Source: Promicromonospora sukumoe (lineage in GTDB: Bacteria; Actinomycetota; Actinomycetes; Actinomycetales; Cellulomonadaceae). Taken from it: a stretch of DNA of 64,000 nt. The stretch is taken from positions 806,001-870,000 of the forward strand of contig NZ_JACGWV010000001.1 in assembly GCF_014137995.1 (NCBI RefSeq), read 5' to 3'. A program made the position numbers and the translations under genes. Under the pieces are notes generated by a model. The model saw nothing but the letters and a program-made list of their open reading frames with translations, searched no databases and was not told the DNA's origin. Of the stretch, positions 4,810-8,251 are shown in pieces; within the stretch, counting starts at the first letter, position 1, and each line of letters starts with the position of its first letter.

Positions 4810-4908
4810 GCCTCCATAGTGCCCGATCCGTCCTCCGTCGTCCCGGGCGCCCGCTGCTCTCAGCAGAACACCCGGCCCCGTCGGCCGGGCCGCCCGACGC
4901 TCGAAGCC

Positions 4909-5334: not shown

Positions 5335-5922
5335 TCAGCGCTGCTCGATCACGTGGTCCAGCAACCCGTACTCCCGCGCGGACGTGGCCGTGAAGATGCG
5401 GTCCCGGTCGGTGTCGGTACGCAGCGTGCCGACGCTCTGCCCGGTGTGCCGGGACAGCGCCGCCTCCATGTCCGCGCGGATCCGCACCACCTCGTCGGCC
5501 TGCAGGATCAGGTCCGGGATGGCCCCGCGACCCTGCGCCGCGGGCTGGTGCAGGATGACGCGCGCGTGCGGCAGCGCGGCCCGCTTGCCCTCGGCCCCTG
5601 CCGCGAGCAGCACGGCGCCGACGGCGACGGCCTGCCCCACGACCGTCGTCGACACCTGGGGCCGGATGTACCGCATGGTGTCGTAGATGGCCATGCCCGC
5701 GCTCGGGTCGCCGCCCTCGCAGTTGATGTAGAGCTGGATGTCGCTGTCCGGGCTGCTCGACTCCAGGTGGATGAGCTGGGCGATCAGCGCGTTGGCGACC
5801 CCGGCGTCGATCGCCGTGCCGAGGTAGATGATCCGCTCGCTCAGCAGCTGCGAGTAGACGTCCATGATGCGCTCGCCGCGCGGGTGCGCCGCGATGACGT
5901 TCGGGATGGTGTAGCTGCTCAT
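5335..5922 (-). CDS. ClpP-family subunit lacking the catalytic serine (ClpR-like)
   Basis: 195 residues with the full ClpP fold. The nucleophile motif that normally reads GQAASMGA is GQAVAVGA here, so residue 100 is Ala (codon GCC, complement of 5623-5625) where Ser is expected. The His (H125 in ILHQP) and Asp (D170 in TDTDRD) positions are kept. The oxyanion-hole loop, usually SPGGSV, reads CEGGDP. The subunit should be proteolytically inactive while still able to form rings, like ClpR of cyanobacteria and plastids. Its ATG overlaps the stop of the upstream active clpP (ATGA), so the two are translationally coupled and probably assemble together. Confidence 0.85.
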   Translation of the reverse strand: MSSYTIPNVIAAHPRGERIMDVYSQLLSERIIYLGTAIDAGVANALIAQLIHLESSSPDSDIQLYINCEGGDPSAGMAIYDTMRYIRPQVSTTVVGQAVAVGAVLLAAGAEGKRAALPHARVILHQPAAQGRGAIPDLILQADEVVRIRADMEAALSRHTGQSVGTLRTDTDRDRIFTATSAREYGLLDHVIEQR

Positions 5923-6560
5923 CGGGATTCCCCCTCGGTTGCAGTACCGGCCGTCGCGGCGAACCCGGTCCGCGCTCGTTCCCGCGGCCGGATGCCGTCG
6001 AAGCCGCCCACGATCGTGTCGATGAACCCGAACTCGCGCGCCTCCTCGGCCGTGTACCAGTGGTCGTGCAGCGAGTCGTCGAAGATCCGTTCGACCGGCT
6101 GCCCGGTGTCCTCCGAGATCAGCCGCAGAACCGTGTCGCGGGTGTGGCGCAGGTCGTCGGCCTGCAGCTCGATGTCGACGGCGGTGCCCGCGATCCCCGC
6201 GGACCCCTGGTGCATCAGGACCCGCGCGTTCGGCAGCGCGCGCCGCTTGCCGGGAGCACCCGCCGAGAGCAGGAACTGCCCCGCGCTGTAGGCGATGCCC
6301 AGCACGAGCGTGGAGACGTCGTTCGGGATGGTGCGCATGATGTCGCGGATGGCGAGCATCGCCGGCACGGAACCGCCTGGGGAGTGGATCCACAGGTCGA
6401 TGTCCGACGACGGGTCCTCCGTCGCCAGCGTGATGAGCTGCGTCATCAGGAGCGTGCCGTTGTCGTCGTCGAGGGGTCCGTCCAGGACCAGGACACGCCG
6501 CTCGAACAGGTCGCGCCGGGAGCGCTCGCCGAACTGCGGGGGCTGCGGTGATTCGGTCAT
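5919..6560 (-). CDS. clpP: ATP-dependent Clp protease proteolytic subunit (active)
   Basis: 213 residues with an intact catalytic triad: S92 (GIAYSAGQ), H117 (LMHQ) and Asp 161/162 (RIFDDSL). The GGSV-type loop is present as SPGGSVP. ClpP forms a double heptameric ring that degrades proteins fed by ClpX or ClpC. This is the upstream partner of the serine-less subunit (4 bp overlap). It carries a C-terminal tail rich in Gly/Arg/Ala after residue 190. The pair resembles Streptomyces clpP3P4 more than the usual clpP1P2, which sits beside tig and clpX; neither is seen here. Confidence 0.9.
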   Translation of the reverse strand: MTESPQPPQFGERSRRDLFERRVLVLDGPLDDDNGTLLMTQLITLATEDPSSDIDLWIHSPGGSVPAMLAIRDIMRTIPNDVSTLVLGIAYSAGQFLLSAGAPGKRRALPNARVLMHQGSAGIAGTAVDIELQADDLRHTRDTVLRLISEDTGQPVERIFDDSLHDHWYTAEEAREFGFIDTIVGGFDGIRPRERARTGFAATAGTATEGESR

Positions 6561-6607: not shown

Positions 6608-6646
6608 GTGAGCAGCACTGCTCTGAGCAGCGAGAACGCTGAGCAG
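6608..6646. promoter_or_regulatory. Three TGAGCAG direct repeats, candidate clpP operator
   Basis: TGAGCAG occurs at 6609, 6624 and 6640, spaced 15 and 16 bp. The first copy is also half of a palindrome, GAGCAG-CA-CTGCTC (6610-6623). Position (about 50-90 bp upstream of the clpP ATG) and repetition suggest binding of a regulator, most simply the adjacent ClgR/PopR-like protein. The motif is not one I can match to a published box. Confidence 0.45.
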
Positions 6647-6652
6647 CAGGAA

Positions 6653-8251
6653 CTACTCGGCGCGCAGGGCGATCCCGAACCGGACCGGGCTGTCGGCGGG
6701 GACGTCGCGGGCCACGTAGCGCAGCCACCAGGTGTCGTCCGCCGGGTCGGGCTCGACGGCGACCAGCTCGGCGTCGGTGTCCAGCGTGACCTCCAGGCCG
6801 GGCAGCGCCCAGCGCTCGGTCGTGAGGTCGGCGAACGGGAGGTCGACGACGACGTCGCGCGCCGTCCGCCCGCCGTCCAGGCCGGCCTCCGGGACCCGGA
6901 CGTGGAACGCGAACGCCAGGTCCCCGCCGTCGTGCCGGGAGCAGGTCAGGGTCAGGGACGGGCCCTCGGCCCGCGCGTCGACGGTCAGGTCGCTGACCAG
7001 GCGGATCCAGCCGACGTCGGCACCGTCGCCTCCGAGGCCGCCCGCACCACTGCCAGAGGCCCCGGAAACCCCGTCCACCAGCCAGTGCACCGTCGCCGGG
7101 TGGAACTGGTCGGCCAGGTTCCCGCGCTCGCCCGCGACGTCCTCCGCGCCGACCAGCAGGCGCTCGCCGACCCACGACGAGGCGACCCGGCGCGGTTCGC
7201 GCACGATCACCTGGTCCACCTGCCGCTCGCCGCGGAACCCGCGCAGGTGCGCCAGGGCGTCGTCGGGCACCTCGGCACCCAGGACCGCGACCACGGGGCC
7301 GAGCGCCAGGTCCCAGGCGTGCCGGAACGGCCGATCGGTCTCGGGGAACGGCGCCAGGTCACGCCCGACGGCCGCCCAGACCCACAGCCCGATCCCCGAC
7401 GCGTAGTGCCGCAGGTCCATGCCGTAGCTGCGGTCGTACGGGCCCGCGAGGTTGCGCAGCCCCGCGTGGTACCGCCGCGCGGTGTCCCGCCAGAGGACCG
7501 ATTCCATCTCGGCGCCGCCGTCGCGCAGCAGGGGCCGGCGCGCGTACCGGCGCCACAGCGCCAGCGCGTACAGGTCGATGCCGTAGTAGGTCGGCGAGTT
7601 GTACTCGTCGAACGTCCCGTCCACCCGGAACCGGGCCAGCACCTGCTCGGCGAGCCGCAGCGCCGGGGCCTCCCAGGACGGCTCGCCCAGCCGGACGGCG
7701 GCGTCCTCCAGCAGGAACGCCGCCATCAGCGCGATGTTCGTGTAGTGCGCGCCGACGCCGCGCGCGAGCGACCCCTCGACGGCCAGCCGCAGCGCGGCCT
7801 CCACGCGCGGGCCCAGGTCACCCGCCAGGGCCTCGGGGAACTCGTTCGCGACGACCACCAGGGTCGTGCCGATGAACTCGCGCCAGTTCGGGTCGTAGTC
7901 GCGCCACTCGACCGACTCCGCCGTCGGGCGCGGCTCGTGCGGGCTGCGCAGCCACGTGCCGTGGAACCGCTCGCCCGGGGCGTCGAGCTGGTGGTCCAGC
8001 ACGCGGGTCAAGGCTCGCCGGGCGCGCTCCAGATCGGCCTCCGCGTCGTCCCGCGCGGGCAGGTTCCGCGCGAGCAGGCCGACGGCGTACCAGCCGGTCT
8101 CGCGGACCAGGTGCCCCGTCGGGGCGTTGCCGCCGCCGGGCTCCTCGGGCGCTCGCAGCAGGCCCACCTCGGGGTCCCACTGCTGGTCCATCCAGTCCAG
8201 GGAGCGTGTCGTCAGGTCACGGGCGTGGGGAGTGAGCCGTTCGGGTCGCAT
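6653..8251 (-). CDS. Uncharacterised protein, probable all-alpha barrel (glycan-acting?)
   Basis: 532 residues from the ATG at 8249-8251. The first two thirds are helical repeats rich in aromatic residues, with WMDQQWD at the start and FDEYNSPTYYGIDLYALALW near residue 215. The last third is beta-rich. This layout (helical barrel followed by a beta domain) resembles polysaccharide lyases and unsaturated-glycan hydrolases, and the EYNSPTY segment recalls heparinase-type proteins, but I cannot name a family with certainty. There is no signal peptide, so it should be cytoplasmic. An in-frame ATG at 8278 is possible but has no better ribosome-binding site. Confidence 0.5.
   Translation of the reverse strand: MRPERLTPHARDLTTRSLDWMDQQWDPEVGLLRAPEEPGGGNAPTGHLVRETGWYAVGLLARNLPARDDAEADLERARRALTRVLDHQLDAPGERFHGTWLRSPHEPRPTAESVEWRDYDPNWREFIGTTLVVVANEFPEALAGDLGPRVEAALRLAVEGSLARGVGAHYTNIALMAAFLLEDAAVRLGEPSWEAPALRLAEQVLARFRVDGTFDEYNSPTYYGIDLYALALWRRYARRPLLRDGGAEMESVLWRDTARRYHAGLRNLAGPYDRSYGMDLRHYASGIGLWVWAAVGRDLAPFPETDRPFRHAWDLALGPVVAVLGAEVPDDALAHLRGFRGERQVDQVIVREPRRVASSWVGERLLVGAEDVAGERGNLADQFHPATVHWLVDGVSGASGSGAGGLGGDGADVGWIRLVSDLTVDARAEGPSLTLTCSRHDGGDLAFAFHVRVPEAGLDGGRTARDVVVDLPFADLTTERWALPGLEVTLDTDAELVAVEPDPADDTWWLRYVARDVPADSPVRFGIALRAE

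Follow-up and report, generated by a model that had tools for sequence, protein, structure and literature searches.

The closest described counterparts of the locus presented here come from Streptomyces. According to the parts of the published reports used in this study, S. lividans is viable only if it has ClpP1P2 or ClpP3P4 (PMC9765437), and the latter does not respond to ADEP antibiotics (PMC12607617). Both belong to a circuit in which ClpP1P2 removes PopR and PopR turns on the backup core (PMC12607617, PMC9765437); the PopR sequence is quoted as TCTGCC-N3-GGC, and two C-terminal alanines, tested on ClgR and Lon, were described as a degradation signal of ClpP1/ClpP2 substrates (PMC9775585). 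For ClpP1P2 of Streptomyces, ClpP2 and not ClpP1 is the subunit on which the ATPases dock, ClpP1 cuts, mutations of the ClpP2 pocket abolish degradation, and a Ser-to-Ala ClpP2 keeps full activity in a ClpC1-casein assay (PMC9765437). The excerpted work on M. tuberculosis places chaperone binding on the ClpP2 side only and reports that inactivating either ClpP subunit slowed in vitro degradation little (PMC4416901), and both ClpP triads contribute in Chlamydia (PMC8182300), indicating that a division of labour between ClpPs is not universal. A triad-less ClpP paralogue beside an active one is found in the cyanobacterial ClpP3/ClpR and plastid ClpP/ClpR proteases; Synechococcus ClpR is mixed with ClpP3 and is inactive (PMC4673316).

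The literature searched gave no account of how a ClpP3P4 core is built and no statement of an inactive ClpP4; the founding papers on the locus, or supplements, may contain an earlier mention.

The clpP3-clpP4 locus and its regulator

The window (the whole stretch of 64,000 nucleotides that was analysed) contains a locus that matches the clpP3-clpP4-popR backup type known from Streptomyces (Table 1). The clpP4 gene lies directly downstream of clpP3, and a popR-like gene adjoins on the opposite strand, facing both. The locus shares with the S. lividans type this gene order, the PopR-type palindromes, the -AA end of the regulator and membership of one ClpP4 group; it differs in that its ClpP4 has lost the catalytic Ser and has an altered loop, compared to the loss of His in the Streptomyces-type ClpP4. 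Public sources label the ClpP3 and ClpP4 proteins as Clp protease subunits. A preliminary description of this DNA had reported the 4-bp overlap of the two genes, which was found again, and an intact upstream ClpP; its S92 and H117 were correctly placed, but D161/162 was ruled out by alignment as the catalytic Asp, which is D166.

Table 1. Positions of the features discussed, in window coordinates unless a contig is named
Feature	Position	Strand	Basis
palindrome CTGCT-CTC-AGCAG, likely PopR box before popR	4854..4866	.	one of two window matches
popR-like XRE regulator, C-terminus ...AFALAA	4909..5310	plus	NCBIfam ClgR, HTH_3
clpP4, 195-aa ClpP-fold subunit without catalytic Ser	5335..5922	minus	PF00574 219 bits; A100/H125/D174
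Asp174 (DTDRD), equivalent of E. coli D171, retained	5401..5403	minus	alignment
His125, retained	5548..5550	minus	alignment
codon 100, GCC (Ala) replacing the nucleophile Ser	5623..5625	minus	motif GQAVAVGA
CEGGDP loop, residues 68-73, compared to SPGGSx	5704..5721	minus	alignment
clpP3, partner ClpP, triad S92/H117/D166 intact, 4-bp overlap with clpP4	5919..6560	minus	PF00574 179 bits; alignment
palindrome CTGCT-CTG-AGCAG, likely PopR box before clpP3	6618..6630	.	one of two window matches
ClpP1P2	contig 1, 771856-773143

The best NCBIfam model for the popR-like protein was ClgR (62.4 bits, under the model cut-off of 170), and HTH_3 scored 44.6 bits. An opposite-strand popR-like gene was present in 192 of 212 clpP3-clpP4 loci (sample described below), and its product ended in -AA in 180 of these 192. 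The palindrome CTGCTNNNAGCAG had two matches in the window, compared to 0.04 expected, and six sites in the 6.5-Mb genome; the two window sites lie 42 bases upstream of popR and 57 bases upstream of clpP3. The half-site in the window has diverged from that of PopR (CTGCT vs. CTGCC). With one mismatch allowed, an identical half-site of an N3-palindrome was found upstream of both genes in 24 of 195 loci, compared to 3.6 in composition shuffles, and the other 171 loci did not pass; the 24 comprised eight loci of the genus (GCTGCT), 15 with TCTGCC or TCTGCT and one unlike these. Since the palindromes and the -AA end are present, putative elements of the published PopR circuit can be recognised here, and they fit that circuit. 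Neither these elements nor the loss of the ClpP3 pocket described below had been noticed in the preliminary description. A scan for promoters and terminators found none. Beside the locus, a 531-aa open frame (6653-8248, minus strand) had no Pfam or NCBIfam match.

Five ClpPs are encoded in the genome: ClpP1P2, ClpP3P4 and an orphan. The orphan fifth ClpP (L004, contig 2, 741404-741922) has Gly for Ser in the motif GFVGGTAQ, and across 13 genomes of the genus this position is Gly in four and Ser in nine; apparently, the nucleophile of another ClpP in this genome, too, has been lost, and within the genus.

Catalytic residues and history of ClpP4

In the profile search, PF00574 (CLP_protease, S14) covered residues 15-194 of the window ClpP4, corresponding at the sequence level to a full-length ClpP fold, and residues 6-194 gave an equal-length alignment with residues 3-191 of E. 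coli ClpP (1tyf row). The Ser-His-Asp triad is incomplete. The replacement of Ser by Ala100, the retention of His125 and the altered oxyanion loop were all as previously described; the loop, N-CEGGDP, has Glu for Pro66 and Cys for Ser65 (E. coli numbering), and both glycines are kept. Asp170, earlier named as the catalytic Asp, was ruled out: because the alignment is of equal length, the catalytic Asp of E. coli ClpP, which we take to be D171, corresponds to D174. The window ClpP4 is a member of the ClpP family by homology and, judging by its residues, would not be an active peptidase.

Ala100 was present in all 12 clpP4 loci of the genus (codon GCC or GCG) and in 108 of 120 database homologues among the matches listed (including the window protein itself), the closest named proteins being from Promicromonospora and Myceligenerans. 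A sequencing error that hides a Ser codon, the doubt raised in the preliminary description, is therefore rejected. The other 12 of the 120 have Ser and keep a CEGG or CDGG loop, so that small residues may interchange here by drift. Conservation of Ala100 holds within the genus; across the 212 loci the residue varies and Ser is kept in many.

These 212 loci derive from 299 collected loci. Seventy-six were dropped, leaving 223: duplicates and other ClpPs of the window genome (L001-L005, L234), duplicate loci (L065, L253) and 68 matches (L014-L033, L035-L038, L040-L045, L047-L064, L066-L085) titled as other phyla or, in the case of L014 and L048, as deep Actinomycetota MAGs. Eleven more (L212, L213, L215-L223) turned out to resemble ClpP1P2 and were removed, with 64-71% identity to ClpP2 controls compared to at most 60% for the rest; all of them carried Ser and His, and their removal raises the dead fraction (ClpP4 without Ser and/or His) from 118/223 to 118/212. 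As the loci were collected with an Ala-type ClpP4 as the similarity query, the figures are counts, not prevalence.

ClpP4 lacked Ser and/or His in 118 of the 212 loci and kept both in 94. Any triad residue was lost in 127 and the full Ser-His-Asp was present in 85. Ser was lost in 108 (Ala 69, Gly 23, Glu 9, Trp 4, Phe 2, Thr 1), His in 18 (Gly 8, Arg 4, Ser 2, and Asn, Gln, Asp and Thr once each) and both in eight. By contrast, ClpP3 had Ser and His in 212/212 and Asp in 211/212, with one Asp unmapped (L012). Dead ClpP4s also made up 57 of 101 loci from a class-wide draw, these being part of the matches of that draw. Among the best 120 of 3603 proteins nearest to a His-less Streptomyces-type ClpP4, the His position was Gly in 118, Ala in one and His in one, and the organism names shown were Streptomyces; no statement of this His-to-Gly change was found in the literature searched. 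Of the best 120 matches to a ClpP4 of the Glu type, 113 kept Ser and His, with Asp mostly replaced by Asn, His or Ser, and in the rest Ser was replaced by Glu (five) or Gly (one), or His was lost (one). In the housekeeping controls from 21 genomes, ClpP1 and ClpP2 triads were intact in 41 of 42 proteins, including 21/21 ClpP2s. Thus, the preliminary description erred in calling the arrangement unusual for an actinobacterium, as dead ClpP4s recur through the sampled loci, Streptomyces included. The single control exception was a ClpP1 with His replaced by Leu (L303, genome G074); the ClpP4 of the same genome (L224) lacks Ser and His.

The history of these losses was followed on a tree from which the active-site columns had been excluded. 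Its 187 rows comprised eight ClpP2s, 12 database proteins with Ser and 167 sequences from the loci, the latter after thinning of those that were more than 93% identical and had the same state. The tree requires 16 or more changes between the active and the dead state of ClpP4, or 28 losses under irreversible loss, compared to a mean of 60 and a minimum of 51 switches in 200 label shuffles; the precise figure is approximate, as the tree is a quick one and support is weak at several nodes. That six different residues replaced Ser and seven replaced His also speaks for repeated loss. The 171 ClpP4 rows of this tree, which held no ClpR rows, were monophyletic with respect to the ClpP2-type rows, and the window ClpP4 lies inside the group, sharing descent with the Streptomyces-type ClpP4 apart from ClpP2. 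The comparison with ClpP/ClpR made in the preliminary description is apt for how such a core might work; in descent, the window protein belongs to a ClpP4 group of actinobacteria in which catalysis was lost repeatedly through different residues. In the clade with CEGG loops, to which the window protein belongs, Ser is found again here and there in proteins with a CEGG or CDGG loop, through either a one-base reversion or parallel loss.

Across 66 pairs from the 12 loci of the genus, median dN/dS was 0.10 for ClpP4 and 0.17 for ClpP3 (mean dS of 0.39 and 0.38 respectively). The dead subunit is under purifying selection and is more constrained than its partner, in line with the earlier suggestion, based on the intact frame and conserved fold, of selection rather than decay. 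The ClpP4 state was associated in the raw counts with the ClpP3 residue that follows Ser (100 Ala and 18 Met beside dead ClpP4; 22 Ala, 81 Met and one Ser beside live ClpP4; 222 loci), but a phylogeny-aware test had six independent pairs (p = 1) and no power, and the association is for this reason not claimed. A test of ClpP4 state against the ClpP3 pocket, likewise without power, gave no phylogeny-aware association.

The ATPase pocket and the N-terminal segment

The pocket positions mutated in Streptomyces ClpP1 and ClpP2, which the excerpted report gives as E. coli Tyr74, Tyr76 and Phe96 in its own numbering (PMC9765437), were converted here to Tyr60, Tyr62 and Phe82. Tyr62 was present in 211/212 ClpP4s compared to 60/212 ClpP3s, and Phe, Tyr, Trp or His at position 82 in 212/212 compared to 23/212. 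The pair of Tyr62 and Phe, Tyr or Trp82 was found in 184/212 ClpP4s, in 1/212 ClpP3s and in all 42 controls (21/21 ClpP1 and 21/21 ClpP2); in 27 of the dead ClpP4s, position 82 is His. The Tyr60 position was variable in all groups, and in the window ClpP4 it is occupied by Gln63. As Streptomyces ClpP1 carries the pocket pair and yet does not dock the ATPases, the pair in ClpP4 permits docking without proving it, and only its loss from ClpP3 speaks.

With the window ClpP4 itself as the query and an alignment score of at least 45, a threshold of our own, a segment resembling its N-terminus was recognised in 212/212 ClpP4s and 0/212 ClpP3s; ClpP3 scores equalled those of shuffled sequences. These scores supersede a pattern test (170/223 ClpP4 and 0/222 ClpP3). 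Median scores of the controls were 17 for ClpP1 and 24 for ClpP2, and given the low ClpP2 score we make no claim that ClpP2 shares the segment.

A probable mixed backup core and alternative readings

We consider it likely that the locus encodes a mixed backup Clp core under PopR-type control. ClpP3 and ClpP4 would form a mixed tetradecamer in which ClpP3 carries out cleavage, and ClpP4, presumably inactive, completes the barrel and offers its retained pocket and N-terminal segment as the docking face for a Clp ATPase. Housekeeping ClpP1P2 would remove the PopR-like regulator through its -AA end; on failure of ClpP1P2 the regulator would build up and turn on clpP3-clpP4 from the palindromic sites. 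This reading draws on the recurrent ClpP4 losses under purifying selection, the intact Ser and His of ClpP3, the ClpP3 pocket loss, the operator-like sites and the -AA end, and it agrees with the preliminary description, in which a nucleophile-less ClpP coupled to an intact one was proposed to be organised like a mixed active/inactive core. The Ser and His kept by ClpP4 in 94 of 212 loci count against it.

The repeated and varied losses in relatives suggest a backup Clp protease built of one cutting and one non-cutting part. By analogy, ClpP3P4 looks like the ClpP1P2 arrangement carried further, with a cutting ClpP3 and a docking or structural ClpP4 that often lacks catalysis. Like ClpP1P2 of Streptomyces and Mycobacterium, it has two non-identical ClpPs, one of which would dock the ATPase, and the Ser of Streptomyces ClpP2 is dispensable; ClpP1P2 differs in keeping, with one exception among the controls, its triads, and in keeping its pocket pair, whereas in ClpP3 and ClpP4 either the pocket pair or the triad is often missing. 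A stronger version, in which the protease became split by reciprocal degeneration, catalysis being given up by ClpP4, and ATPase docking together with the canonical N-terminal segment by ClpP3, so that neither ring works alone, is put forward tentatively, at somewhat less than an even chance. If true, actinobacteria have switched the ClpP4 half of a split protease at least 16 times, with the sampled Streptomyces also carrying a dead ClpP4. The sequences predict that the two subunits clearly divide the work and that ClpP4 is defective in catalysis, both of which are testable in laboratory Streptomyces, and the replicate losses provide material for studying the retention of non-cutting subunits in protease rings.

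Alternatively, ClpP4 might be regulatory, capping or poisoning rings or joining ClpP1 or ClpP2, thereby throttling or retargeting proteolysis. A precedent exists in ClpP-ADEP of Streptomyces hawaiiensis, an extra ClpP homologue acting by joining other ClpPs, which in the excerpts available disrupts ClpP1 complexes and partners with ClpP2 (PMC12607617), and the five ClpPs of this genome might mix. ClpP-ADEP differs from the present case in forming an active complex with ClpP2 and in lying near the ADEP gene cluster and not in a popR locus. The ClpP4 match begins at most 50 bp after the ClpP3 match in 187/212 loci, which favours joint production, and the loss of the pocket from ClpP3 and of catalysis from ClpP4 fits cooperation better; we regard a regulatory role as unlikely.

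A neutral ratchet would share the mechanism of the mixed core and differ in why the loss was fixed: if the sites of one subunit suffice, ClpP4 catalysis could drift off without advantage, dead and live forms being alike. Ser, Ala and Gly alternate inside the CEGG clade, a restored site in Synechococcus ClpR gave no faster core (PMC4673316, in part), and the Ser of Streptomyces ClpP2 is dispensable (PMC9765437, in part). However, ClpP2, whose Ser proved dispensable when assayed in the published work, kept its triad in every control, and the changes of Ser to Glu, Trp and Phe are not drift among small residues. This explanation appears quite improbable to us; judged by sequence, the loss may be adaptive or neutral.

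It is very improbable that ClpP4 has kept peptidase activity by means of a different nucleophile, such as Cys68 of the CEGGDP loop acting with His125. Cys68 was indeed present in 55 of the 118 ClpP4s without Ser and/or His, compared to one of the 94 with both, but 63 of the 118 have no Cys68, some relatives have SEGG with Gly100, His itself is gone in 18/212 loci, and Cys68 presumably lies outside the nucleophile elbow.

That ClpP4 is a decaying pseudogene is scarcely credible, as its frame is open and its dN/dS lies below that of ClpP3, in spite of an in-frame TGA in the clpP4 counterpart of one order-level relative (G544, contig 1, 3605065-3605646) and of one genome among the 13 of the genus (G005) without a clpP4-level match. 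The G544 gene itself may be a true pseudogene. In G005, the only one of the 13 without such a match, the best E-value was 1e-49, and the orphan ClpP5 is present.
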